Part shown: one piece after another, positions 5,201 to 63,200 of the stretch | Layout of the letters: every line of letters begins with the position of its first letter | Numbering within the stretch: the stretch's first letter is position 1 | NCBI GenBank assembly: GCA_020152595.1 | Contig: JAIGNY010000566.1 | Coordinates: 1,785,001-1,849,000 of the forward strand | Direction: 5' to 3' | Length of the DNA stretch: 64,000 nt | DNA from: Chiridota heheva | Lineage: Eukaryota; Echinodermata; Holothuroidea; Apodida; Chiridotidae | The notes under the pieces: generated by a model | Told to the model about the DNA's origin: nothing | Seen by the model: only the letters and a program-made list of their open reading frames with translations | Database searches by the model: none | Position numbers and translations under genes: made by a program

Positions 5201-6832
5201 ATTATTTTATTATTTCTAGGGGACCCCCTTATATATTGGCCAAATGACCCAATATATTTCAAAATATTTTAATGTACATAATATCCAACGGATATAAATT
5301 TAACAAAATATATACACAAAAGAATTTCGATGAATGTGAGGATGTGATGTGACAACTTGTCTGATTTCATTCGATTCTGCACAAATGAGACAGAACTTGA
5401 AAGCATAGTATCTTCATGAATCAGTATTTTCTAACACTTTCTTCACCATTTTGTTTCTGTCAATGCCATCCTTCCTATACGATGAAGTTGCTTGACCACT
5501 GAACTTAATACTTTATCAGTCTTCCTAAATGCTCAAATACCTAGTACTTTGTATGTCCATTGACCTTAAGAAAAGATCTAATAAACATGTAACAAGAATT
5601 GAAAAAGTTCATTGACCTCTCATCCATCTACAGTTCAGATATGACATTACTCGACCTCAGATAAACTTCCTGCATTTATTGACGACATCAGGGAGCCAAT
5701 ACATCTTTGTCCATTGCTGGGGAATGCCTGTATGGAAAAACAACAAAGGCAATTATAGGAATGCAGTTTCATTTGAAGGCTGGGATGGAACTATATATTC
5801 ATACCATGATATACAACCTGAAGTACCACGGGATGAATGTAGAGTGAGTACCTATTTTGAGTACTTGTACTGTAGCATATTTTGAGTTACTTATAAAATA
5901 TTTTGAGTATTTGTAGCATATTTTGAGTACTTATAACATATTTTGAGTACTTGTCACATATTTGGGTACTCGTAGCATATTTTGAGTACTTATACAATAT
6001 TTTGAGTACTTATAACATATTTTGAGTACTTATAACATATTTGTACTTGTAGCATATTTTGAGAACTTCTACCATATTTTGAATACATGTAGCATATTTT
6101 GTGTCCGATCGTGTAGCATATTTTGAGTACTTATAACATATTTTGAGTACTTGTATCATATTTGGGTACTTGTAGCATATTTTAAGTGCTTAAAAATATT
6201 TTGGATATTTGTAGCATATTTTAAATACTTATAGCATATCTTAAATACTTATTACATATTTTGAGTACTTGTGACATATTTGGGTACTTGTAGCATATTT
6301 TGAGAACTAGCATTTTTTGAATACATGTAGCATATTTTGTGTCCAATCTTGTAGCATATTTTGAGTTGTTGTAGCATATTTTGAGTACGGTACTTGTAGC
6401 ATATTTTGTGTCCAATACTTGTAGTATATTTTGAGTACTTGTAGCATAATTTGGGTACGGTTTTACCATATTTTGGGTGCAGTACTTGTAGCATATTTTG
6501 AGTACTTGTAGCATATTTTGAATACTTGTTACATACTGTTTTGTAACAACTTATTTTAAATTTTGATAACGTATTACAAATTTTAAACACTTAATACAAA
6601 TTTTAATTACCAAATTCTGACTCGGATTTTAAAGTTATGGCCACCAAAGAAACAAAATGATTTGACTTTTTTGTTACAGAATGAAAACCGAAAATGGCGG
6701 ACAACAGTTTTCTTATTTAGAGAATTAGAAGTACGGAGGTTACCGATTGTAAATATCATACCAAGTCCTGAAATCCAGCTTTCCGATAACCACAGATTCA
6801 AAATCGAGGTCCAGAGTGCATGCTTTGATTAA
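2119..6832 (+). CDS. COL27A1-like: Fibrillar collagen alpha chain, clade C (type XXIV/XXVII-like), 3' part: telopeptide and COLFI C-propeptide
   Basis: Five exons join in phase: 2119-2205, 3452-3584, 4983-5092, 5634-5843 and 6680-6832 (TAA). All have AG/GT borders. The product is the C-terminal propeptide that drives trimer assembly of a secreted procollagen in the ER and is then cleaved off. Visible COLFI landmarks are the P-A-R-T-C-H-D-L start, the Ca-site stretch [12 protein letters not shown], the segment N-F-L-H-L-L before the H-C cysteine, and an R-L-P-I-V block before the terminal A-C-F-D. All eight conserved cysteines are present. About 26 residues found in type I/V chains between the P-T-Q motif and the N-F-L-H-L-L region are absent, as I recall for COL27A1/COL24A1, so I place the chain in clade C. 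The Gly-X-Y exons are not in the window; the gene is cut at the left edge. COLFI identity is sure; the clade is probable. Confidence 0.9.
2291..2561 (+). mobile_element. tRNA-derived SINE (V-SINE-like), copy 1
   Basis: The head has an A-box-like TGGCTCAGTGG and a B-box-like GTTTGATTCCC. A conserved body follows with TTGTGTCCTTGAGCAAGACA and a GATGGACTGGCGTCC block. The same order occurs at 21469-21745 and, reversed, at 25871-26152. It lies in a collagen intron. Confidence 0.75.
2562..3451. other. Collagen intron sequence with a small tandem repeat
   Basis: This is AT-rich intron. At about 3085-3185 a 16-17 bp unit containing TTTTACTCAAAATATA repeats about six times. I see nothing else. Confidence 0.6.
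3452..3584 (+). CDS. COL27A1-like: Collagen exon: start of COLFI (Cys1-Cys2)
   Basis: The exon follows a pyrimidine-rich TTTCAG and ends at AATG|GTAATG (phase 1). It encodes a short helix-like stretch ([15 protein letters not shown]), then S-P-P-G-S-R and the [11 protein letters not shown] motif that opens the fibrillar collagen C-terminal domain. Confidence 0.9.
3648..4185 (-). mobile_element. LINE-tail-like insertion flanked by a ~140-bp duplication
   Basis: 3822-4010 resembles, on the - strand, the LINE-type tail also seen at 57300-57475 (TTTGGCACATTTGACTC, with CAAAC-rich end). It is flanked by two similar segments (3648-3790 and 4014-4180), both with CAATTCCTTTTCAATT, a purine tract and AAAACTGGCAATCTCAATGT. 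It lies in a collagen intron. Confidence 0.45.
4983..5092 (+). CDS. COL27A1-like: Collagen exon: COLFI calcium-binding segment
   Basis: The exon enters in phase 1 after TTTACACTCAG and leaves in phase 0 at GATGAG|GTAAGA. It encodes [19 protein letters not shown], the Asp/Asp/Cys/Asp pattern of the procollagen calcium site, then [11 protein letters not shown]. It carries Cys3 to Cys5. Confidence 0.93.
5420..5516 (-). mobile_element. End of an AAAGGATTAGTTCAGTGG-type MITE
   Basis: The segment with TTCTTCACCATTTTG, then CTTGACCACTGAACTTAAT, matches the right terminal repeat of the element at 41866-42423 and of the fragment at 63083-63200. The left end is not recognisable. Confidence 0.5.
5634..5843 (+). 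CDS. COL27A1-like: Collagen exon: COLFI chain-recognition region
   Basis: This is a 70-codon, phase 0/0 exon (TCTACAG | TTC ... AGA | GTGAGT). It encodes [16 protein letters not shown], then V-H-C and, after a variable region corresponding to chain selection, R-D-E-C. It follows directly on the P-T-Q-S-D-E end of the previous exon, with no exon for the W-Y-rich segment seen in type I/V chains. A minisatellite begins about 8 bp after its donor. Confidence 0.9.
5850..6545 (+). repeat. Minisatellite in collagen intron, unit about 20 bp
   Basis: About 28 degenerate copies of a unit built on TTTTGAGTACTTGTAGCATA occur, with a higher-order variant containing TGTGTCCAATC. The first copy starts within about 10 bp of the exon donor AGA|GTGAGTAC, and the unit core GAGTAC repeats the donor's own GAGTAC. 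In most units the donor GT is replaced by TT. Confidence 0.9.
6680..6832 (+). CDS. COL27A1-like: Collagen terminal exon: COLFI C-terminus and stop
   Basis: The exon has 51 codons including TAA, after TTTTGTTACAG. It encodes [19 protein letters not shown] and the closing S-A-C-F-D. Cys8, one residue from the domain end, matches the conserved final cysteine of procollagen C-propeptides. Confidence 0.92.
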   Translation, partial: NENRKWRTTVFLFRELEVRRLPIVNIIPSPEIQLSDNHRFKIEVQSACFD

Positions 6833-6969: not shown

Positions 6970-7690
6970 TGGCCATAATGGGGACATCATCCTCACCATA
7001 ATGGGGGCATTGTCCTGACCATAATAGGGACATCGTCCTGACAATAATGGAGACATCATCTTGACCATAACGGGGACATCGTCCTGACCATAACTGGGGC
7101 ATCGTCCTCACCATAACAGGACATTGTCCTGACTATAATGGTGACATCGTCCTGACCATAACAGGGACATCGTCCTGACCATAACTGGGGTATCGTCCTC
7201 ACCATAACAGGGACATCGTCCTCACCATAACAGGGACATCGTCCTGACCATAACAGGGACATCGTCCTGACCATAACCGGGACATCGTCCTGACCATAAC
7301 GGGGACATCATCCTGACAATAACGAGGACATCGTCCTGACCATAACGGGGACATCGTCCTGACCATAATAGGGACATCATCCTGACAATAACAGGGACAT
7401 CGTCCTGACCATAACGGGGACATCGTCCTGACCATAACGAGGACATCGTCCTGACCATAACGGGGACATTGTCCTGACCATAATAGGGACATCATCCTGA
7501 CAATAATGGGGACATCGTCCTGACCATAATGGGGACTTCGTCCTGACCATAACGGGGACTTTGTCCTGACCATAACGGGGACTTTGTCCTGACCATAACA
7601 GGGACATCGTCCTGACCATAACGGGGACATCGTCCTGACCAGAACCAGCACATAATCCTGACCATAACGGGGACATTGTCCTAAACAAGT
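6970..7690 (+). repeat. Minisatellite, 23-bp unit, downstream of collagen stop
   Basis: About 31 copies of a unit with core ACATCGTCCTGACCATAAC begin about 140 bp after the collagen TAA, so the array probably lies in the 3' UTR. Because 23 is not divisible by 3 and the - strand unit lacks stops, long - strand ORFs arise that encode repeats of a W-S-G-R-C-P type. These are products of the repeat, not a gene. A run of T's at about 7690-7712 follows. Confidence 0.92.
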
Positions 7691-9059: not shown

Positions 9060-10175
9060 TACCGATAGGTCCTAGGTACTTGCAGATCTTAGGTACCTGT
9101 ACCTACATGTCTAAGTACCTACAGATATTAGGTACCTATAAGTCTAAGTACCTACAAATATTAGGTACCTACATGTCTAAGTACCTACATATATTAGGTA
9201 CCTACATGTCTAAGTACCTACCTATATTAGGTACATACATATCTAAGTACCTACAGATATTAGGTACCTACATGTCTAAGTACCTACAGATATTAGGTAC
9301 CTACATGTCTAACCACCTACAGATATTAGGTACCTACATGTCTATGCACCTACAGATATTAGGTACCTACATGTCTAAGTACCTACAGATATTAGGCACC
9401 TACATGTCTAACTACCTACAGATATTAGGTACCTACATGTCTAAGTACCTACATAAATTTGGTACCTACATGTCTAAGTACCTACAGATATTAGGTACCT
9501 ACATGTCTAAGTACCTACAAATATTAGGTACTTACATGTTTATGTGCCTACATATATTGGGTACCTACATGTCTAAGTACCTACAGATATTAGGTACCTA
9601 CATGTCTAAGTACCTACAGATATTAGGTACCTACATGTCTAAGTACCTACATATATAAGGTACATACATGTCTTAGTACCTACAAATATTAGGTATGTAC
9701 ATGTCTAAGTACCTACAGATATTAGGTACCTACATGTCTAAGTACCTACAGATATCAGGTACCTACATGTCTAAGTGCCTACAGATATTAGGTACCTACA
9801 TGTCTAAGTACCTACATATATTAGGTACCTACATGTCTAAGTACCTACAAATATTAGGTACTTACATGTTTATGTACCTACAGATATTCGGTACCTACAT
9901 GTCTAAGTACCTACAGATATTAGGTACCTACATGCTAAGTACCTACAGATATTAGGTACCTGCATGTCTAAGTACCTACAGATATTAGGTGCCTACATGT
10001 CTAGGTATGTACATGTCTAAGTACCTACAGATATTGGGTACCTACATATCTAAGTACCTACAGATATTAGGTACCTACATGCCTAAGTACCTACAGATAT
10101 TAGGTACCTACATGTCTAAGTACCTACAGCTATTAGGTACCTACATGTCTAAGTACCTACAGATATTAGGTACCT
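9060..10175 (+). repeat. Minisatellite, 33-bp dimeric unit
   Basis: About 33 copies occur. Each 33-bp unit is a diverged dimer of a 16-17 bp half that begins GTACCTACA, one half continuing GATATTAG and the other TGTCTAA. Because 33 = 11 codons and the unit has no stop in one frame, uninterrupted + strand ORFs of up to 192 codons result (Y-L-Q-I-L-G-T-Y-M-S-K repeats). There is no sign of selection or splice sites, so I do not call it a gene. A decayed tail runs to about 10480. Confidence 0.92.
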
Positions 10176-11249
10176 ATATGTATAGGTGTTGGGCTGCTAC
10201 AGATCTTAGATTAGTCTTGGTTACATATAGATATTAGACACTTGCATATCTCAGGCACCAATAGAATACATCTACAGGTTCAAGGTACCTATAGACATAT
10301 TTAAGGCACCAACATATCGTAGGCATCTAAAGATCATAGGCATCTACTGATGATAGACATCGGATTTAGGCACCTACAGGTCTAAGGTACCTATACTTCG
10401 AAGGCACCTACATATCTTTGGCCTCAAGACGTCCTAGTCATCTGTAGGTTTTATGGACCTACCTACCTAAAGCAATTACAGGACTCGACACTGTATGGGT
10501 ACAATGCTTCATACACACTCATAATGTGATTCACGTTTTGCAGTGGAGATTTTCCTTTTGCCGCTTACATACTTCAAAAGTCTTGAGAATGTTCATGTTG
10601 GAAGGTCAGAGTTCGTCAATAGGAACAAGCACACAGCTTTGAGCCCCTGTCAATTTTAAGCATCAGGACTTTAAACAGGATTTGTTCTGTACAATGATTT
10701 AATTAGTCAAATTCTGCAGGGCTTTCTAAGAAAATCATCAGTTTTGCCAAAATCCTCCAGGCCACAGCTTTTCCAACCAGTACATAGTTTACATAACTTT
10801 TCCAGCAACTTCAAACAGCTTTTATTTCTTTAGATTCCAGGTAAAAACCTTTACATTTATATTTCAGACATTTCCAAAACATAGTATGATAAATAATGAC
10901 TAAAATTTGTTAATAAGCATTCCAAGTTTATACAGAGCCAGTTAAACAATTGTGTTATATTTCTATATTATATTTTTGTGGATCATATATAACTTGGCAT
11001 TGACCTCCACTATTCGGCTAAAGTAGTATGACAAATAGATTCTTTTAAATTTACTGCAAATTAGTTGTCATTTATAAATATCAGTTGGAGTTAAACTCCA
11101 GGTTTCTTCCACCATCTAGTTAAATAAAAGTTAAAAAAATTTCACCAAATTTGGAGCTTGTTGCAGTAAGATTTGACCACCCTTTCTGAACGTAAAAATA
11201 CAACAACAAAAATCTTAGATTTGTACCAGGTATAAAATAACCATTATGG
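10176..11249. other. Intergenic; decayed repeat tail then plain sequence
   Basis: 10176-10480 contains degenerate AGGCACCTACA-like relics of the preceding minisatellite. From 10480 on I see no gene or repeat. Confidence 0.5.
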
Positions 11250-19751: not shown

Positions 19752-22700
19752 CTGTGAGAATAAAAAAACAATATTACCACCATGAGCGAAAAGCCTTTTG
19801 CATCAAATATCTTAAAGGTCTATGGACGTGTAGAGTTAAATAGTCTAAGCACATGTAGAGGTAAATAGTTTATGGATGTGTAGAGTTAAATAATCTATGG
19901 ATGTATAGAGTTAAATAGTCTATGGATGTGTAAAGTTAAATAATCTATGGATGAGTACACTTAAATAGTCTATGGACGTGTAGAGCTAAATAGTCTATGG
20001 ACGTGTAGAGTTAAATAGTTTATGGACGTGTAGAGTTGAATAGTCTATGGACGTGTAGAGTTGAATAGTCTATGGACATGTAAAGCTAAATAGTCTATGG
20101 ACGTGTAGAGCTAAATAGTCTATGGACGTGTAGAGTTAAATAGTTTATGGACGTGTAGAATTAAATAGTCTATGGATGTGTAGAGCTAAATAGTCTATGG
20201 GTGTGTAAAATTAAATAATCTATAAATGTGTAGAGTTAAATAGTCTATGGACGTGTAGAGTTAGATAGTCTATACATGTGTAGAGGTAAATAGTCTATGC
20301 ATGTGTAGAGTTAAATAGTCTATGGATGTGTAAAGTTAAAGAGTCTATGGATGAGTAGAATTAAATAGTCAATGGAAGTGTAGAGCTAAATAGTCTATGG
20401 ACATGTAGAGATAAAAGGTCTATGGATGTGTAGAGTTAAATAGTCTATGGGTGTGTAGAGTTAAATAGGCTATGGACATGTAGAGATAAAAAGTCTACGG
20501 ACGTGTAGCATTAAAATGTCTATGGACGTGTAGAGTTAGATAGTCTATGGGTGTGTAGAGTTAAATAGTCTGGACGTGTAGAAGTAAATAGTCTGGACTG
20601 TAGACTTAAATAGCCTATGGACGTGTAGAGTTAAATAGTGTGTGGAAGTGTAGAGTTAAGTAGTCTATGGATAGGTAGAGTTGAATAGTCTATGGACTAT
20701 AGAGCTAAATAGTCTATGGATGTGTAGAGTTAAATAGTTTATGGACGTGTAGAGTTGAATAGTCTATGGATGTGTAGAATTAAATAGTCTATGGATGTGT
20801 AGAGTTAAATAGTCTATGGATGTGAGAAGTTAAATAATCTATGTATGTGTAGACTTAAATAATCTATGGATGTGTAGAGTTAAATAGTTTATGGATGCGT
20901 AGACTTAAACAATCGATGAACATGTAGATTTAAATAGTTTATGGACGTGAAGAGTTAAATAGTCTATGGACGTGTAAAGTTAAATAGTCCATTGGAAAAA
21001 ATTCTCAATTTTGAATAGAACAGCCTTAAAATTGTGGAAACAGCAACGAAATGATTGGGATTATGGTAAAGATGCTAAAAACATTTGCTAAGAACTTAAT
21101 TAACTATTTTCAAGAATGGTGACAGACATTACAAGACTAACAGAAAATATCAAGGTCACCCAGTCAGCCATCACAAATTTACTTAAAATGCCAAAAAAAT
21201 AAAAAGGCTGTAAAATGGCTGATATTTCAACACATTTTGATGGAGGTTATGGCTAATTTCATGATTCTTAATCAATTGTAAAAGCATTTTAGCTAATGTT
21301 ACCTCTAATTGTCCATAAACCTATAATATTTTGAATGCAGCATCTTGAGTTTCTGTACTATGGCTGTGCAAAGTATGAAGATTGTTTGAGATGTGCAATA
21401 TTTGAGTGTTGATGTGAATGGGAAAACAGCTTTAGATGTTTCTGTTAATTCTTTTGTAATTTTTAAAAGGTGCAGTGGCTCAGTGGTTAAGGAGTCAAGC
21501 CCATATTCGAAAGGTACCAGGTTCCATTCCCATCATGAGCGCTGCATTGTGTCCTTCAGCAAGACACTTTACTCTACTTGCTTCAGTCCACTCAGCTGTA
21601 AAATGAGTACCAGCACTGCTGGGAGTTAATCTGCCATGGACTGGCGTCCTGTCCAGGGGGAGTCACATACTCTCATCTGCTTGCGCCATGGAAACTGGAG
21701 ATAAGCACTGGCTCTATGAGCCTAATGACTCGATGGATTTAGCTTCTACTCAAATTTTACTTATTTAAAATGATGAGAATGTTTTTTCACATAAGATATT
21801 GATTGGGTGATTTGTCAAATCCACTGCTCTTCTTCAGAAACTTGTTACAAAGGATATAATTATAGGGAGTTTATATCAAAATGTCTTTTTAATGCATAAA
21901 ATAAAGGGAATTTGCATATTTAAAGTTAAAAAATGCTGAAGGACTTTACACCTTAATTTAAATCTTTGTAACAAGTACTGTAGAGGGATTTCATCATGTG
22001 ACTCATCTTGAAGCCATTTTGCCGAGAAAATGTTGTTGCGTTTCACGCATCTTCACACAGCTCAGTCACATCACATGTACAACAAACATACTGCCTTTTA
22101 ATCTACTTACCAGTTCAGCAAATTTTATTGTTTTTGTTCGCGACAGCGATTTACTCCATATTTTCCTAACGTTTTATATATTCACCTGGTATACGAAGAG
22201 TAACTTTAACGTAAACGCCATCTGATTGCTCAGAACAGTTTGGCAAACATTGCCTCTATGTAGGCTTGACTGTTTTTATCAAATATAGGAATAAAATTCT
22301 TATCTTTTCTATTCTTTATCTTGTTTACCTGTTCCTTCTACTTGGTATTTTTCTAATTTGTAAACAAGGTTAAGGGTGCAACCCAGGCAGCTGGCAAATG
22401 CATGCCAGGTATATGTATATGTCTGGTATGCCTGATGTGTTCATTATTATGTTAATTGTTATGTAATAAGGGTTTTGCCTATAAGCACCTAAGTGAGGGA
22501 AACAAAACATTTTCAGTTGGCAGTTAAAACTCATTGAGAGAAGTTCATGGGTGCAACGCATAAATACTAGAATATGAGCTTAGTGCTCAAGAGGTACAAC
22601 TTGAATTTGAAGCACAGTTTTTCTTGAAATCAGTGTGCGGTATTTCCAGAAGATTGTTGTTTAACCCTTACTCTACCACGTGGCGATATTATCACTGTTT

Positions 22701-25700: not shown

Positions 25701-28700
25701 GGAAAATTCATACAATTTTTCCTCATGATGATTAATTGTGATTATATATTCCAAAACACTGTTTCAGCAACATGTAATCAAATGGTGAAAAGCAAATAAA
25801 AATGAAATAAAAATTCATGAAAATGAAATGCTATGTTCAGAAGAAGGATGTATCAGGTTAATAAAAAAAGCTAACTCCATCCAAGCCATTATAGGCTCAA
25901 ATGGTTGTTGCTTATCACCAGTTTCCATGACGCCAGCAGATGAGAGTACACAGCTCCCCCTGGACGGGATGCCAGTCCATTGCAAATTAACTCCCCAGCA
26001 GTGCTGGTACTAATTTTACAACTAAGTGGACTGAAGCAAGTAGAGTAAAGTGTCTTGCTCAAGGACACAATGCAGCATTCACGACGGGAATCGCACCTGG
26101 TACTTTTCGAATACGAGCATGACTTCTTAACTACTAAGCCACTGCGCCTCTCATAGTTCCAGAGAGGATTCAGCTAAAATAAAAAAAAACTGAGTTGCAA
26201 ACAAAATATCACTTACTCCACCCCAAGGTCAACTTCTGGTATTCCTGACAACATCTGGTTTGAAAGCATTTCTTCTGAACCCTTCTGGGATTCCGTTTTT
26301 AAATTATCTGGAAGTTCATACAACTTATCCTCTGGAGACTTGTATCTGCATTCAAGAAAGGAAAAGATCGTGACAAAATAATTTTAGGATATTAAATTCT
26401 CTTCTAAATTTTACATGAATCCCTATATTTCCATACTGAAGACTGCATACAGTTTCAAACATAATCTCTTCCATTGGAAAACACTCATATCAACTCTGAA
26501 TTTTTCATGGCTGCCTTGTCTTTACAATTCTATGAGTCCGTATAGTGATGATACAACTATTTTTAAAATGATATAATCATCCATAACTTTGTTATAACTA
26601 TAAAGTTGTTGAAAAGCATTTGCAGCAATAGATACAATATGATGTCAACCAATAGTACACAATCAAATAATGGTCAGCTTAACTTTAAATCAAAAATTAA
26701 TAACTTGCCAACATAATTAAAAGAAAAGCATTTGTTTTGGACAACATTTTTCAAGCTAAGTCTCACCCCCAATCCACATTTAGCAAAATAAGTTAATGTA
26801 TTACTCATCAATGACAAAATTTCAAAAATCAAAATTGACAGAATAACATCAAGATACATGTATCAATATCAAAAATTGTATTCATCAAATTTTTTGGAAA
26901 CTGGTGAAAAAATCTCCAAAAGTAAAAAGATTTTTGGGCAAAATTCAGAGACACTTCTGAATTTCATGCCTTCTTATTGATCACACAACTCATCAATAAA
27001 TATATATTTGTGGTTTTACGTGAGTGGGTATCATGTTGGGGTTTGTAAATTATCCACTTCACTTTCCTTGCTGATGACAGTAAATATGATATTTTGCAAA
27101 AGAAAAGGAATGACGCCAAGGTTTATTGCAACATGAGAATATTAAGTACAAGATGAGAATCCTCTTTTTTTAACATTTTCGTTTTTTTATTTTCCTGTTA
27201 AATTTCAAATTACTGTCTTGTTTTTTCTTAAACCGAGTGCCACACACGGAAACCAGAGATACCAATTATAGTATCTCTGGAATGACCTGATTCAGGATTG
27301 AATCTGCACAAATAAGCAACACACGGCCTTCAGTAAACAATACTTACGGCCATCAGTAGACAATACTTACGGCCATCAGTAGACAGTACCTACAGCCATC
27401 AGTAGACAGTACTTATGGCCATCAGTACGGCCATCAGTAGACAGACGGCCATCAGTACCTACAGCCATCACGGTCAGTAGACAGTACCTACAGCCATCAG
27501 TAGACAGTACTTATGGCCATCAGTAGACAGTACTTATGGCCATCAGTAGACAGTACTTACGGCCATCAGTAGACAGTACTTACAGCCATCAGTAGACAGT
27601 ACTTATAGCCATCAGTAGACATTGCTTACGGTCATCAGTAGACAACACTTATGGCCAACAGTAGACATTGCTTACGGCTATCGGTAGACAATACTTACAG
27701 CCAACAGTAAACAATACTTACAGCCATCAGTAGACACTGCTTACAGCCATCAGTAGACAATACTTATGGCCAACAGTAGACAATACTTATGGCCATCAGT
27801 AAACAATGCTTACAGCCATCAGTAGACAATACTTACAGCCATCAGTAAACAATACTTACAGCCATCAGTAGACAATACTTACAGCCATCAGTAGACACAA
27901 CTTACAGCCATCAGTAGACAATACTTATGGCCATCAGTCGACACAACTTACAGCCATTAGTAGACACAACTTACAGCCATCAGTAGACAATACTTATGGC
28001 CATCAGTAGACACAACTTACAGCCATCAGTAGACAATACTTATGGCCATCAGTAGACAATACTTACAGCCATCAGTAGATGATACTTACAGCCATCAGTA
28101 GACAATACTTAAGGCCATCAGTAGACAATACTTACAGCCATCAGTAGACAATACTTACAGCCATCAGTAGACAATACTTACAGCCATCAGTAGATGATAC
28201 TTACAGCCATCAGTAGACAATACTTAAGGCCATCAGTAGACAATACTTACAGCCATCAGTAAACAATACTTACAGCCATCAGTAAACAATACTTACAGCC
28301 ATCAGTAGACAATACTTACAGCCATCAGTAGACACAACTTACTTTTCATCTTTGTGTTCATCCTGCTCATCCTTCTTGTTCTTCTCCATGTTATCTTCAA
28401 TAAATTTCATCCTGTAACAACAAAAAATATTAAAAGAGAAAATACAGAGACAAAAAACTACACACCTTTATTTGATTTATGATACAGAAGTTTGAAACAA
28501 ACCAAACTGCTAAAAAGACATTAAACAAAAGCAAAAAGTGTTTAAAATATTGGCTTGTAAAGTTTTTTCACGAAGTTACCATTTTCTAATTCTAGGATGA
28601 CAAGATCCTGTTCAAAAAATTGGCATCAAAATGGGCCATGAATTGACCAATTTACAGCCTTTTGAAATTGAAGGAATTAATATGCAAATTTGTGATGCAT

Positions 28701-50500: not shown

Positions 50501-53500
50501 TGCTTGATTAATCTTGGGACTCAAGTGAAATATGCCCTCGCTTTTTGGTCACCAGCTCCTTTAAATCAACTAGTCCAACTAAGACAACCTATTTCCGTAC
50601 TCTTTCTTTTTACAGTTGCTGTGGGGCTGGTACTGCTGCTGATACCGAGATGACGACACAGATGATCTCATCTAACCTTGAACTACATTCCTTGTCTACA
50701 GGGAGAGAGACCAGAGTGGCCACAGCCAACAGGCTTCTTAAACAGTTTCTCTTTAGGTGAGGTTCTTATGCTTGAGATTTGCATGGGATATGCATATTCA
50801 TGCCTTGCTTTAGATTTGCATAGAGTATGCATATTCAAGCCATTTGTTAAAGATTTTTTTTTGTTGTAGTTTTTCTGTAGAGTTCAGAAAGTGGGGATGA
50901 ATCCTGAGTGTTAACAGTGGCTCAACTCCTTGCGGGTCCATGAAGAATTTAGCATTCTTGGCTTTCAAAGATACATATCACATTAATGTTATTGCTTGTG
51001 CCCTTTAAGTCTAGATTTTGGTTGGGCCCTCAAAGCCTTGTTGTGCATCTGGCTTCGAATTTTTGATTATTGCTCGAATCCTTGAACATGAATAGTAGTC
51101 TTTATAGACGGGTACATACGGGGGGTTAATCTGCACCCCCCCCAGGACTCTTCCAAACCAACTTTTTTAGCTTCTTTTTATAGTCCTAAAACACATTCAC
51201 GATGTTAACAAAAAAAAAAATCCGGCACTCTGGAGATATTCAAGATGGCGTCCAAAATGGCGCCAAAAATGGGACAATTCTCTAAAAAGTCATATATTGG
51301 CCATAAGCAATAATTATCTTTAAAAAGAAACCTCAAAATATTATCATAGGAGCTGTTGGGAACACTTGCAACCATATTTATATTTTTGCATAACTTTGCC
51401 ATATTCCAAATCAATATGGCGGCCAATATGGTGTCCAAAATGGCCGCCAAAATGACAAAATTCTAATTTAAAAGTCATATATTGTCCATAATTAAAAGAA
51501 AGTACAGAATATTATTTTAGGGCCATTGGGAACTCTTACCAACCATGTTTGTATTGTTACTATTTTCTAAATCATAGATGGCGATGGGAAAATTGTTTTG
51601 TATGCATCAATTTGGTCTGCATGAATCCAATTTACCCTTTTAAAATCCAAGTCGGTATCGCAGACCGTTTTGCAGAGTCCTATTCGAAAATTTTAGACTG
51701 AGTTAGCAACAACACTACAACGTTAAAATGGCTCATTTAATAGAGGAAAACATAACCTTTAAAAAAAAGTTGAAGACCCAGTACACACACAAGTCTCAAT
51801 TCCCAGAACCAAAGAGCACTCTCTTAAGCTAGACACACCTGCTCCATTGCCACCTTTTCATATTGCAAAGAGAAAAGGTCCTAACATAGACCTACAGAAT
51901 GTCCAGCAGCCAGAAGAAAATTTGGCTTTGTTACAGAGAGCTTTAACAGTGTACTTCATCTGGGCTTTCTGTCGAAAAGCAAGTAGTACTGACAAGCAGC
52001 AGATACCAGCACTGTGTGGGTTCATTTCTGCCATTGGATGCCCCCAAGTGAACTTACCACCATTGACTTTTATCCGTCCATTACCGAGCCTATCACAGAG
52101 TACAATGTTGTGAAAGAACTGTTGCGTCAATGCGAGAAGGCTACTGAGGAAGTTGGACAGCGTTACACAATAACTACATTTGACCTTGGTGTAATCATGA
52201 AAGCCATGCCTATCATATGGGACAACCCTGCAGCTTACAAGAACCACATCGTCCTCATTGGAACCTTCCATACCATCATGAACTACTTGAATATGCTTGG
52301 ACATAAGATGGCAAGTTCTGGCTACTCTGAGCTCATTATAGAAGCAAATCACAACCTCTGGCTGCCTGAAAGGAGTTCTAAATGGCAAAGCGTATAGCAA
52401 GTCCATGTGGTGTCTGAAAGTAGTAAGTGAAGCCTTAGAACGACTACTTCTTTCAGCTTATATCGCCCAGAGGGATGAAACTGCTCACGGCCCCACAAAT
52501 GCAGATGCTCTGGATGCCTTGATAACACTCTGTAATGCTGAGAACTTTAATGCTGTTCTTCAAGATCCTACAATTCAGCAGTATCTGAATGACTACACGG
52601 TGTTCCAAGAGCGAGTCGAAATGGAGAACTAGGAAAGACCGCCAAGTTCTGGATATCTTTTTGGATCATGCACACCGTATCTTTATGCTGCTCTATGCAG
52701 TAAAGACAAACAATCTGAAATTGTACCACAAGTGCATGGCGGACATGGCAGACTTGTTCTTTAGCTTTGGAGGAATCAATTACTCTAGATACCTCACCTG
52801 GTTTGATGCATTTCTTCGCCAACATTGAGGTCAGTCATCCAGGAGCTACTCGATTACTAGAGAAAGGAGCCATATCCGTTGCCAGGTCTAGAATGCCGGT
52901 AACGTATGTGCCGTGAGACAAGGCGATAGAGGAAACCTTCATGAAGTTTGCCAAGTCCCATGCTGGTGCTGGTGGAGCTGGTCTTACTGGAATCTTAGAG
53001 AACTACGGTGCTTACCAGCGATGGATTCGGACGACATCAGAGCGTAGTAAGTACTACCAGGCCACATTGGAGATATGTGACATGTGTCTTGACAATGATA
53101 ACGCCAAGTGTGGCAAGCACCGTGAGCAACTCCAGACAGAAATCAAAGGAGTGAAGCTGCAGTACAACGAGTAATGGATGCCATAGAAGGCTTCCTCAAC
53201 CCATTCGACATAGCAGACAAAGACCGCTTGTATGAGATTTCATCTGGCAATCCCATACCTTCTGAGATAGAACATGATGTTCTAACTGCTGAGGAAGCTG
53301 GCAGGTTGGAGAAGGAGAAGTTTGTTGAGGAGGCTAAAGAAAAAGATGACGACGAAGGACGAAAGGAATTCTTTGACCCGTTGAAGAAGTTAAAGCTGAA
53401 GACCATGCAAAAGTTGAACAAGAAAGTTAAGCTAACATCTGCTCAAGGAAATGCTTTGAAATATCAAGAGCAGGGGGATATAGCCTTTCAAATTCTTGTG

Positions 53501-56500
53501 AAGTCACAGATGCTCTCTCAACCTGTAAGCATTGATGAACTGATGAATTACTGCATTACACTAGTACCTCATGCTCTAGGTACTCCCGATGGCTTCATGG
53601 CAAAAACCAACAAAGCAGCAGCAGTCCACTTCCTCACAAGCGGCGTGCCTCAAGCTTCCTTACCGTCCAGAAATGCTGGAGAAACACTCTTCATTGAAGA
53701 TGGGAATGCCCATTTCCATACATTGAAGGATCTGCCTCCAACCTTCAAGCAAATTTCTTTCAAGCTGCTTGACCAAATAAGCCATAAGCCAGATGTAATC
53801 TTCTCAACTGACATGTATCTGGAAGAGTCCATCAAAAGTCAGGAGCGGCTTCGCACGTGGCTGCAGTGAGAAAATCCTCTTGGAAGGCATCAACACCAGA
53901 AAGCCAGCCAATTTCAAGGTCTTTCTGACGAAATGCGAAAATAAAAAGCAGTTGTGTCAGCTCATGCTTCGCTCTTGGAGTAGTCCAGAAGCAGCACGGC
54001 GTTTAGTAGGAAGGAAAGTTATACTTGTGGTTGAAGGTGTTCCGTTCTTGCTAACATCTACCGGACGGTGCATCTGTGCAACAACATGAAATCCCAGGGC
54101 TTAGATCAAACCAAGAGGAAACAGACAGCCGAAAGTGATCCTGTATTTGTTTTATGCCAAGGAACATGGTTACAAACAGGCAGTTGTACACAGCCCAGAT
54201 AGCGATATCTTCTTCATATTGTTGTACTATGCAGAGAAATTGCGACCACTGACTGTTCTGTTTGACACTGGCAGTGGAGTTAACCGGAGACTCCTTGACA
54301 TCTGTGACATAGCAAAAGACTTGGGACCCACATACTGTAAGGCACTTCTCGGCATTTACTGCTTTACTGGTGCAGATTGCACTGCGCTTTTAAAGGAAAG
54401 GGGAAGAAAATTCCTCTGAAGACACTTGAAAAGAGGCCACGCTACCAAGACTCTTTCGTGAAGTTGGGCAATAGCTGGGAAGTTGAGGAGAGTCTAGTTG
54501 ATGAGCTGGATGAGTTTGTGTGTGCTCTATATGGCTTTCCTAGACTTAAGCATGCCAATCAAGTTCGATGTGCAATGTTGAAGAAGATGATTGAAGGAGA
54601 GACCATCAAGTCATCCAAAGTAGATTTGTCCAGGATGTCACCTTGTAGACAGTCGCTGATCCCACACATCAAACGTGCAAATTACAGGGTAGCTCAATGG
54701 AAACGGGCACACATACCCATACTTGAAATCCCGCCTCCTACAGCACATGGATGGGCTCTTTGTGATGGATACATTGAGCCAGTGTGGTCAGAGGGACCTA
54801 TCTTGCCGTCATGTCTTCAAGATATATTGGCTGATGACACTGAGGAGGATTCATCTGATGAAGAATATCCTGAGGAAGATGGTGTTCCAGATGAATCAGA
54901 TTATTCCAGCCTAGACTCTGATTCTGACAGTGACTGATTCATTATAAACACAGGTTATTTTAAATGTATAAAATATGAACATTGTAGAAGAAACTAGTAA
55001 CTCTTATGAAAAAAGAAGCGGTGGACATTCGCTATATAAAATGTCCATATGTAAGCAATTTTTTCATGATTTTCTTTTGATATACTTGGCGGCCATTTTG
55101 GATGCCATACTGGCCGCCATATTGGATTTTGAACATGGCAAAGTTATGCAAAAATATAAATATGGTTGCAAGTGTTCACAACACCTTCTAGAATAATATT
55201 TTGAGGTTTCTTTTCAATGATAATTATTGTTTATGGCCAATAACTTTTGATTTTTTTAATTTGACCATTTTGGCGCCATTTTGGACGCCATCTTGGCCGC
55301 CATATTGGATTAGGAACATGGCAAAAAATATGAATATGGTTGCAAGTGCTCCAAAAAGCTTCTAGAACAATATTTTGAGGTTTCCTTTCAATAAAAATTA
55401 TTATTTATGGCCAATATATGACTTTTTATAGAATTTTACCATTATGGACGCCATATTGGACGCCATTTTGGACGCCATCTTGAATATCGCCAGAGTGCCG
55501 AGATTTTTTTGTTGTTAACATCTTAAATGTGTTTTAGGACCATAAAAAGAAGCTAAAAAAGTTGGTTTGGAAGAGTCCTGGGGGGGGTGCAAATTAACCA
55601 CCCGTATATACCCGACTATTATGAGGTAAGCTTTTTATATCTACCAATTCTGTACATTGTATTCACATACTGCAAATGATTTTTAAGACACTCCCAATTT
55701 TTTTTTACCAATGTCTATAAACTGCAGTCAGCATTGAACATTGCCATACTGATGAAAAATAAGGACAGTGTGCATATGTGAATAGGCAGTCCTTTTATGA
55801 TGTGGCTTATGTAGGCACATTGGCACTGTAATATGGTGAAGTCGTAAATCATACTTGCATTGCCGAACCTACCTTTACTAGCCCATTTGTAAAACCAATT
55901 TATGATTATTCATGTATTCTTACTCATCCTTCTTGCAGGTACCAAGGACATATAGGAGCAGCATTGGTTCTTGGTGGTGTGGACCTCAATGGACCCCATT
56001 TGTACAGCATCTATCCACATGGCTCCACCAATAAACTTCCCTATTGCACCATGGGTTCAGGATCCCTTGCTGCCATGTCAGTTTTTGAAGATAGATACAA
56101 GCTTGGTATGGAGGTAAGTTAGTTACTACTTTATCTTCTCCTTTTTGCATTAATTAAGTTTACAACATGTTGGCCTTGCTTTCCCGTGAAGCAATATCTT
56201 TCCTTGGAGAAATGGTCTGCCAATCATTCACAGTTAATGTACACATCACCTCAGGCATATGATACACAGCTATCTTTATCATCAGTTTGCAAACAAATTT
56301 CTCCCACTAAGACACCCAACACAGATGAGTGATTTCAATCACAAAAGTGCCCTGATTACTCAGCACTGGCTTTCTGTAATCTTATACACACAATTAACAT
56401 TGGGCTACTTGGATGTGGTGTGCGTGGGAATGGCAGATAACCAATCTATTGTTTGGACTGGAAACACAATACACAGAATAGGAATTCAGGTTGGTAATTG

Positions 56501-61227: not shown

Positions 61228-63080
61228 GTTTGTTTGATGTGGGCTTAACAGCACCTCGACAGCAAGGGTCAAATGAGGTTAGATCATTTCAGAGGTAGGA
61301 AGGAAAGAGAACGGGAAGATTGAGAGAAACATGAGAACTAAAATTCAGAAAGCTGGGATCAAGAGAGGAGGTGCATGGGTGAAAAAACAAAGTAGAGAGA
61401 GGGGAGGGGGAGAGGAGGGATAAATATGGTTGTAGAGGGAAGCATGATGAAGGAAGGAGATAATTTTATCTGGAGGGATTTTTTGGAAGAGCTCAGCTAT
61501 TGAGTTGTGGGGAGCGAGAGAAGGTTGTACAGGGGGCAAGCAAGGAGAACGTGATGGACTGTGAGGGTGCAATGGCAATTGCTGCAGAGGGGTTGAGGGG
61601 GAGCCAATAAGGAGGTGGGTGTGACCTATTCTAAGATGGGTAATGTGAACGTTGTCGACACGGGAGAGGTTGTGGATGATGGGTTTGATCAAAATAGTGG
61701 GCTGGATGACGTGGAGTTTGTTATCAATTTCGGAGTCCCAGGTTTGCTAGCTAGGTCATGAATAAGGGAAGCGATAAGCGGTTTGATGTCAGAAAAGGTT
61801 GTGGCAATTGGAGTAGGGGGGAGTTTGCGGGCAAGCTTAACAACTGCATCAGCCCTGTCATTGCCAGGGATGCCAAGATGGCTTGGTATCCAGAAGAAAA
61901 GAATACTTTTCCTGCAGAGGGTGGGCGGAAGGAGTTTATGGAGGAGGTGGGATGTGAGGTTATCCCACTTAAGATTAAGTAAAGAAGTAAGGACAGCCTT
62001 GGAATCGGAGAAGATGGCAAAGTGGGGAGTACTCAGTAAAGTTGAGGGCGAAGTGCATGGCTTGGCCTCGGCCAAAAAGATGGACGAGTAGTCGGGAAGC
62101 CTGCTACTGAGGGTGATGTCTTAGATGACGGCAGCAGCAGTCGTCTTGACGCCTTCCTTAGAGCCATCAGTATAGATGGAGGTGTAGTTTAAAAGTTGGT
62201 CTTTGATTTCGTTGGGTAGTTTGATGAAGAGGTTAGGGTGAGTTTGAAGAAGAGGTTAGGGCGGGTTTGGGTTTTGTGATGAGTGGAGAGGCCCAGGTGG
62301 ATAGAAGGGAGGGGGTGGCTCAGGGAGGAAAAGTGGGCCAGGAGAAGGTGCCAAGAGTGGCGGGATTTATGCCGGGATGGAGGAGGTCTGATTTGAAGCA
62401 CAAGCTGAAGGGAGGGGATAGGGTTTTAGTCATATCAAAGAGGGTGGAGAAATTGGGGTACCTAATGAGGTTGTAAACAGGGTTCTGGGTTGGGTGCTGT
62501 TGAGGGCTCTAAAAGCATAAGAGAGGCCAAGCTTTCTACGTCTTAGCAGAATGGGGGGTTTATTGGCTTCAACATGAAAGCTGGTGATTGGGGAGGTCCT
62601 GTAGGCACCCAGACAAAGACTTAGGGCTTTATTTTGGATGGTGTAGATGTGGTTGAGGTAAGAGTTGTGAGCGGCACAGTACACAATATTGCCATAGTCA
62701 AGATTGGCACGAATGCTGAGCCTGAAGATTTTGAGGAGAGCATGGCGGTTCGCACCCCAAGTGGTGTTGGAAAGGAGGCAGAGAAAGTTCAGGGAGCTGT
62801 TGCATTTTTGTTTCAGGTTTGTTATGTGTTGCTTGTAGGAGAGCTTGGGTCTAGAGGTAAACCCAGGAACTTAGTGTGGTCAACTTTAGGGATGCGATTG
62901 CCATTGAGCACGAGGTTCGGGTTTGAGTGGAGGTTGTTGAAATGACAGAAGTGCATGCAGAATGTCTTGTCTTTGGAGAATTTAAAAGCGTTATTGTTGC
63001 ACCAGTCTTGCAGTCGGTTGAGGCTAAGTTGGAGCCTATTTTCGACAGTTTTCAGTCGTTTCTCAGTACACAAATTATAC
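61228..63080 (-). mobile_element. 5'-truncated non-LTR retrotransposon with RNase H (I/Jockey-like)
   Basis: On the - strand in order: RT end at 63073-62822 (L-N-R-L-Q-D-W-C-N-N-N, F-S-K-D-K-T, then H-T-K-F-L-G-L); linker at 62684-62430 (I-Q-N-K-A-L, G-A-Y-R-T-S-P-I, R-R-R-K-L-G-L); RNase H at 62075-61750 (F-S-D-S-K-A-V-L, then W-I-P-S-H-L-G-I-P-G-N-D-R-A-D); and a C-terminal tail ending near 61345 with L-R-I-G-H-T and S-F-L-H-H-A-S-L-Y-N-H-I. The 3' UTR ends in the complement of GGGCTTAACAGCACCTCGAC. Frames are disrupted, so it is inactive. It is the parent family of the fragments at 61-920, 12608-12912 and others. Confidence 0.85.
61689..62075 (-). pseudogene. LINE RNase H domain remnant
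   Basis: The open frame holds D-S-K-A-V-L (acidic catalytic site) and H-L-G-I-P-G-N-D-R-A-D (His plus final Asp), characteristic of LINE-encoded RNase H. The upstream catalytic residues fall in the preceding, broken frame. Confidence 0.8.
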
Positions 63081-63082
63081 CA

Positions 63083-63200
63083 AACTTTAATATCTCCTTG
63101 ACGGAATAAGATTTTTGAATGCTTTCTTCACCATTTTGTTTCTTTTCAAGTCCTCTTTCATATAGGATAAACATGCTTGACCCCTGAACTAATCCTTTAA
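63083..63200 (-). mobile_element. MITE end fragment (AAAGGATTAGTTCAGTGG-type)
   Basis: TTCTTCACCATTTTGTTTC, TCCTCTTTCATATAGGATAA and CCTGAACTAATCCTTTAA match the right arm of 41866-42423. It separates the two LINE remnants. Confidence 0.65.

Follow-up and report, generated by a model that had tools for sequence, protein, structure and literature searches.

A minisatellite beginning at the 5' splice site of a C9orf78 homologue in Chiridota heheva, with comparable donor-anchored arrays in unrelated genes

The window (the whole 64-kb stretch of DNA analysed, with a GC of 0.36) carries on its minus strand a homologue of C9orf78/TLS1, as the first-pass annotation had proposed. The protein, assembled manually from nine exons, matched Hep_59 (E 6.4e-28) and human C9orf78 chains over residues 3-270 of 270 (E 1.1e-79). 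C9orf78/Tls1 acts with Brr2 in splicing, and the hexamer GTAAGT is the ideal match to U1. Exon 1 was not found by motif search and the numbering of exon 6 is therefore nominal. In the assembly the stretch holding this exon is matched in full once, no second haplotype being seen, and the 39 other scored matches cover part of the upstream intron only, a dispersed repeat. Marker searches with COX1 and GFP gave no match. A stretch resembling a dispersed repeat, perhaps SINE-like, lies in a neighbouring intron of the gene (25870-26160), and its last intron holds a 25-bp array of 47 copies (19818-20989) that ends 66 nt from the acceptor. Elsewhere in the window, long open frames in runs at 51490-54940 and 61690-63130 resemble mobile-element remains, the latter also resembling, by eye only, a reverse-transcriptase end.

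Nominal exon 6 ends at the donor AAAA/GTAAGTTG (28343/28342, minus strand), and this true donor is unit 1 of a minisatellite whose boundary falls exactly at the exon end (Table 1). TRF returned a period of 23 and 44.0 copies, filling the first half of the host intron. Within 27305-28349 the transcribed (minus) strand has 24 exact GTAAGT and the plus strand has 0; across the whole window the numbers are 45 and 18, respectively. TRF and these counts agree with the initial description of about 44 units of 23 bp with about 24 GTAAGT, the first being the true donor. Distal units 39-42 of the parse are scrambled. The true donor is preceded by AAA and the array copies by GCT or GCC. The description of the decoys as having CT at -2/-1 holds for most copies and not for the rest; among the 39 full decoy units, positions -1/+1 read TG in 23, CA in eight, CG in five, CT in two and TA in one. 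These pairs look like the decay of an original CG, one route of which would keep the GT while the other would lose it. The open frame of exon 6 closes with Lys at 28342 and read-through past the donor gives Lys and then TAA, as had been foreseen. Intron phase and the GTAA of the donor force this stop, which is consequently no sign of design.

Table 1. Coordinates in the window of the two donor-anchored arrays and the exons and intron around them.
Feature	Position	Strand	Basis
Fibrillar-collagen C-propeptide exon; donor TGTAGA/GTGAGTACC	5634..5843	+	Sequence; COLFI E 2.4e-6 on frame
Second donor-anchored array, unit of about 20 bp	5844..6535	+	TRF 5867-6535; start at donor, motif counts
Next, last collagen exon, with stop codon	6680..6832	+	Sequence; COLFI E 0.0019, below curated cut-off
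Next exon of C9orf78/TLS1 homologue, nominal exon 7	26217..26345	-	Exon chain
Host intron; acceptor ...TTGAATGCAG	26346..28342	-	Sequence, exon chain
23-bp minisatellite, 44 copies; transcribed-strand consensus GTAAGTATTGTCTACTGATGGCT	27326..28342	-	TRF, unit parse
True donor GTAAGT, opening hexamer of array unit 1	28337..28342	-	Sequence
Nominal exon 6 of C9orf78/TLS1 homologue; ends GATGAAAA	28343..28411	-	Open-frame exon chain, C9orf78 match

The second donor-anchored array of the window, in the collagen gene, also starts exactly at an exon donor and its unit holds no exon bases. It contains one GTGAGT (the true donor and first copy) and no GTAAGT. The other copies read TTGAGTA, matching the donor from about +2 onward without the donor GT. 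Two other minisatellites were seen on this side of the window, one with a 23 bp unit directly past the collagen stop codon (6973-7682) and one with a 33 bp unit (9099-10181).

Seven further donor-anchored arrays were identified in the 1.1-Gb genome (L043, L051, L056, L057, L058, L069, L086), and in five of these (L043, L051, L056, L057, L086) the unit includes exon bases. L043 is a lambda-crystallin exon (PDB match, E 2.6e-16). L051 is a CUB exon (CUB, E 2.5e-12) with an array that was not chosen for GTAAGT and a unit made up of roughly the final 30 bases of the exon and GTAAGG. L086 (G000:C1259:441159-441740) is a Sushi exon from a sample blind to repeats, and its unit consists of the exon end and GTAAGA. 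As exon end and donor are both repeated in these three, local sequence can hardly separate their copies. The remaining host genes are named less firmly: L057 has a weak ankyrin match (E 0.03), L056 is an open exon with weak, conflicting matches (CwfJ_C_1, E 0.015; PDI-A6 chain, E 0.019), L058 is an open exon without a firm family or a PDB match, and L069, with a short array, is importin-7-like by a weak match. The GTAAGT-array loci were picked by pattern, partly with AG before the first donor, among the matches listed, and therefore give no frequency: 4/20 fetched regions have a GTAAGT array starting at or over an exon end (L043, L056, L057, L058), and among 15 further regions one array is donor-anchored (L069), two start outside the stretch and one region has no array. 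The arrays of L070 and L071 extend past the fetched stretch and start outside view, and the locus-by-locus reading left out L001-L038. Two candidates were set aside: in L048 the copies are dispersed and form no array of GTAAGT, and in L073 the pattern at the exon end is due to chance and no array is present.

A genome-wide excess of tandem GTAAGT was rejected, with 323+455 matches to GTAAGTN17GTAAGT in the 1.1-Gb genome compared to the commoner reversed control (950+1838). Tandem arrays of all kinds are very common, 54 with a score >= 150 being present in the window and 20 regions; 34 of the 54 were not picked for GTAAGT, and two of the 34 were judged by eye to be donor-anchored (collagen, CUB). 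The Sushi sample consisted of 40 matches, one per contig, from 150 scored out of 1010 candidates, 20 with both sides of the exon and 20 with the end side only; a few ends lacked a clear donor. An anchored array was present at 1/40 exon ends (L086) and at 0/20 exon starts, where one start near a 2.1-copy, 12-bp repeat was not counted. With expected counts taken from the array density of the 64-kb window only, the 40 ends, which form 27 similarity groups, would have 0.18 arrays in 27 (P = 0.16). When the window's two genes were pooled in post hoc, adding about 11 donors counted by hand and excluding the donor of the first-pass annotation, the result was 2 of about 38 compared to 0.25 expected (P = 0.027). 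A crude exon score found six donor-side candidates compared to one on the acceptor side, with two of the six doubtful (a within-array call in L057; L058 1421-2297), and it misses the collagen and lambda-crystallin donors. Together these counts suggest a possible excess at donors, which would make them hot spots for arrays. A literature search of open-licence papers found no genome-wide count of splice-site arrays.

At the window's density an array would start by chance within 85 nt of about 0.7% of donors, and this figure and the abundance of arrays in the genome speak for a rival reading, in which a ready-made dispersed satellite landed at the C9orf78 donor or an array came to abut it by chance. 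A 20-nt word of the unit, searched through 1.1 Gb, had 15 exact and 10 one-mismatch matches, all of them inside the C9orf78 array, and 18 two-mismatch matches, five of which lay outside it. The 23-bp unit is thus essentially private to the locus, indicating that the array grew in place, and the search mostly refutes the dispersed-satellite version. The donor itself also lies inside unit 1, and exon bases lie inside the unit in L043, L051, L056, L057 and L086. We give arrival from elsewhere or chance abutment very little credence. The original proposal that the array was seeded by duplication of the donor is supported by the donor being unit 1, by the near-private unit and by arrays of other sequence at the donors of other genes.

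The farther a unit lies from the exon, the more it diverges from the consensus (rho = 0.56, p = 7.5e-5), with values of 0.043, 0.084 and 0.129 in successive thirds, and exact GTAAGT falls from 11/14 to 9/15 and 4/15. In blocks of eight units the pairwise difference is 1.9 and 1.8 bases near the exon and 4.0 and 4.4 at the far end. Intron bases 1-80 are identical to those 437 bases further on, which indicates that the donor end exchanges with the array interior. Rho in seven donor-anchored arrays, one of them (L051) truncated where its locus ends, was 0.56 (C9orf78 array), -0.15, 0.73, 0.19, 0.00, 0.25 and 0.24, so that the exon-to-far gradient is strong in only two of the seven, the other five ranging from -0.15 to 0.25 with none at p < 0.05. 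Among 44 arrays parsed from TRF rows, two had |rho| >= 0.5, the C9orf78 array and a non-anchored one in L040; this table breaks the L043 array into pieces and misses its gradient. As a general rule the age gradient is mixed, and this counts against the reading we prefer below.

Within the 40 full units, G+1 was kept in 29 and lost in 11; among the 23 columns only +8 varied more, and +23 varied slightly less. T+2 to T+6 were conserved in 36 to 40 of the 40, and the TAAG of the core is nearly invariant, with several splicing-unrelated columns equally conserved. There is no constraint on the donor G of the copies, and selection on the copies as donors was rejected on the variability of G+1 and the collagen copies without the donor GT. 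By U1 pairing, computed with the U1 5' end, 21 copies reach -6.5 to -7.6 kcal/mol compared to -5.6 kcal/mol for the true donor. On this scale the decoys are no weaker than the true donor, and since 21 copies pair better, decoys may on sequence alone be used; the better pairing, like the nearly invariant TAAG, counts against the reading we prefer below. The pairing energies and the stop codon that any decoy use would bring in could be taken as signs of regulation, in which decoys bind U1 and divert or delay splicing, decoy use leads to a stop and mRNA decay, and the array sets or autoregulates C9orf78 output. We regard this as highly improbable, because G+1 is lost in more than a quarter of the full units, intact cores become rarer with distance from the exon, the arrangement recurs in unrelated genes, GT is missing from the collagen copies, and phase and GTAA explain the stop. 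The reported effects of C9orf78 also concern NAGNAG 3' splice sites and exon inclusion (passages of PMC8894380), and the string 'autoregul' is absent from the main text of that paper. The roles that the first-pass annotation had suggested (U1 titration, exon definition, autoregulation, suppression of intronic polyadenylation) found no support, given the counterparts in unrelated genes, the lack of conservation of the copies as donors, the effects reported in that source, and the two AATAAA of the host intron (27191 and 27127), both of which lie past the array. The same annotation had also allowed that the array could be neutral, and of its options this fits best.

The array might instead aid the true donor, either because many U1 sites strengthen exon definition or because a fold hides the decoys and leaves the true donor open. 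The predicted openness of the true C9orf78 donor ranks 1 to 3 of 24, depending on setting, and the true donor is also predicted to be highly open in L058, L051 and L086. A segment of 201 nt reaching from the end of the exon into the array gave a better fold than its shuffled versions (z = -2.3), of which 5/200 did as well. In L043, L056 and L057, however, the true donor is predicted to be no more open than the copies, so that exposure by folding, seen in three of six sister arrays, is a mixed prediction and not a general one, and we consider help from the array very unlikely. Position and exon definition are general candidates for the success of the first donor.

Splice-site minisatellites are already known from lancelet mirages and human IFI6, and by analogy the C9orf78 array is akin to them. 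The name 'mirages' was reportedly given in lancelets by Canestro et al. in 2002. In humans, a minisatellite of IFI6 (6-16, G1P3) is said, in work attributed to Turri et al. in 1995, to supply multiple splice donor sites in the transcript. Passages of PMC3087553 and PMC3902484 describe the lancelet cases (Adh3, the globins BflGb6 and BflGb9, troponin C, PGBD5) as minisatellite-like tandem copies at exon/intron boundaries, many with splice signals, and report regular splicing as undisturbed; the first repeat of PGBD5 adjoins the 5' splice site (PMC3902484, in part) and the globin case has three to six units (PMC3087553, in part). The C9orf78 array is a splice-site minisatellite in a wide sense (tandem units of 10-100 bp, one of them a real splice site). 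The five arrays with exon bases in the unit (L043, L051, L056, L057, L086) also have the anatomy of a mirage in the strict sense, in which the repeat includes exon bases, and share with mirages their place at the boundaries of ordinary genes. Mirages in this sense are further marked by lengths that are unstable between haplotypes or cells. The C9orf78 and collagen units differ in holding no exon bases, as the unlike triplets before the true C9orf78 donor (AAA) and its copies (GCT/GCC) attest, and in a copy number above that of the globin case. We therefore file the C9orf78 array as a splice-site minisatellite that is mirage-like. In IFI6 the repeat likewise carries multiple donors; two downstream units are reported to serve as donors (passages of PMC4526556), whereas the C9orf78 array is known from its sequence. 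The Rogers model of intron gain via tandem duplication of splice signals, as cited in part of PMC3087553, likewise involves tandem copies of DNA carrying splice signals, but the C9orf78 array enlarges an existing intron and no new intron was seen.

Taken together, the reading we favour, and think likely, is that of a neutral, donor-nucleated minisatellite without a function of its own, of which the first donor is spliced. A minisatellite would nucleate at the 5' splice site of the intron it then extends into, with selection preserving the exon together with unit 1, the first donor, while downstream copies would be free to duplicate, reshuffle or vanish. Most new copies would arise close to the exon end, and copies would decay the farther out they lie, which would explain why intact GTAAGT is commonest near the exon. 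The exon-proximal donor is presumably the one used, because any other would add an immediate stop codon. As unrelated genes of the same animal share the arrangement, the array probably arose as a neutral side effect of the genome's richness in repeats. The presence of such arrays in collagen, crystallin and other genes argues against any special tie to a splicing-factor gene, and the connection with the splicing role of C9orf78 looks accidental.

A bolder conjecture, which we think possible though rather doubtful, is that minisatellites in this animal arise preferentially at 5' splice junctions. Arrays with tens of copies of the donor would then follow a few percent of all donors, amounting to thousands of introns. 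Position or exon definition alone would lead the spliceosome to the copy next to the exon, although many others are equal or better U1 sites, and turnover at the junction would go on feeding alternative donors and new introns. The donor-anchored arrays turn a single curious gene into a recurring feature of the genome and provide natural experiments on the long-standing question of how cells select the correct 5' splice site when others lie nearby. They are also examples of minisatellites that begin at splice junctions, and new introns have been proposed to come from such a source (passages of PMC3087553).
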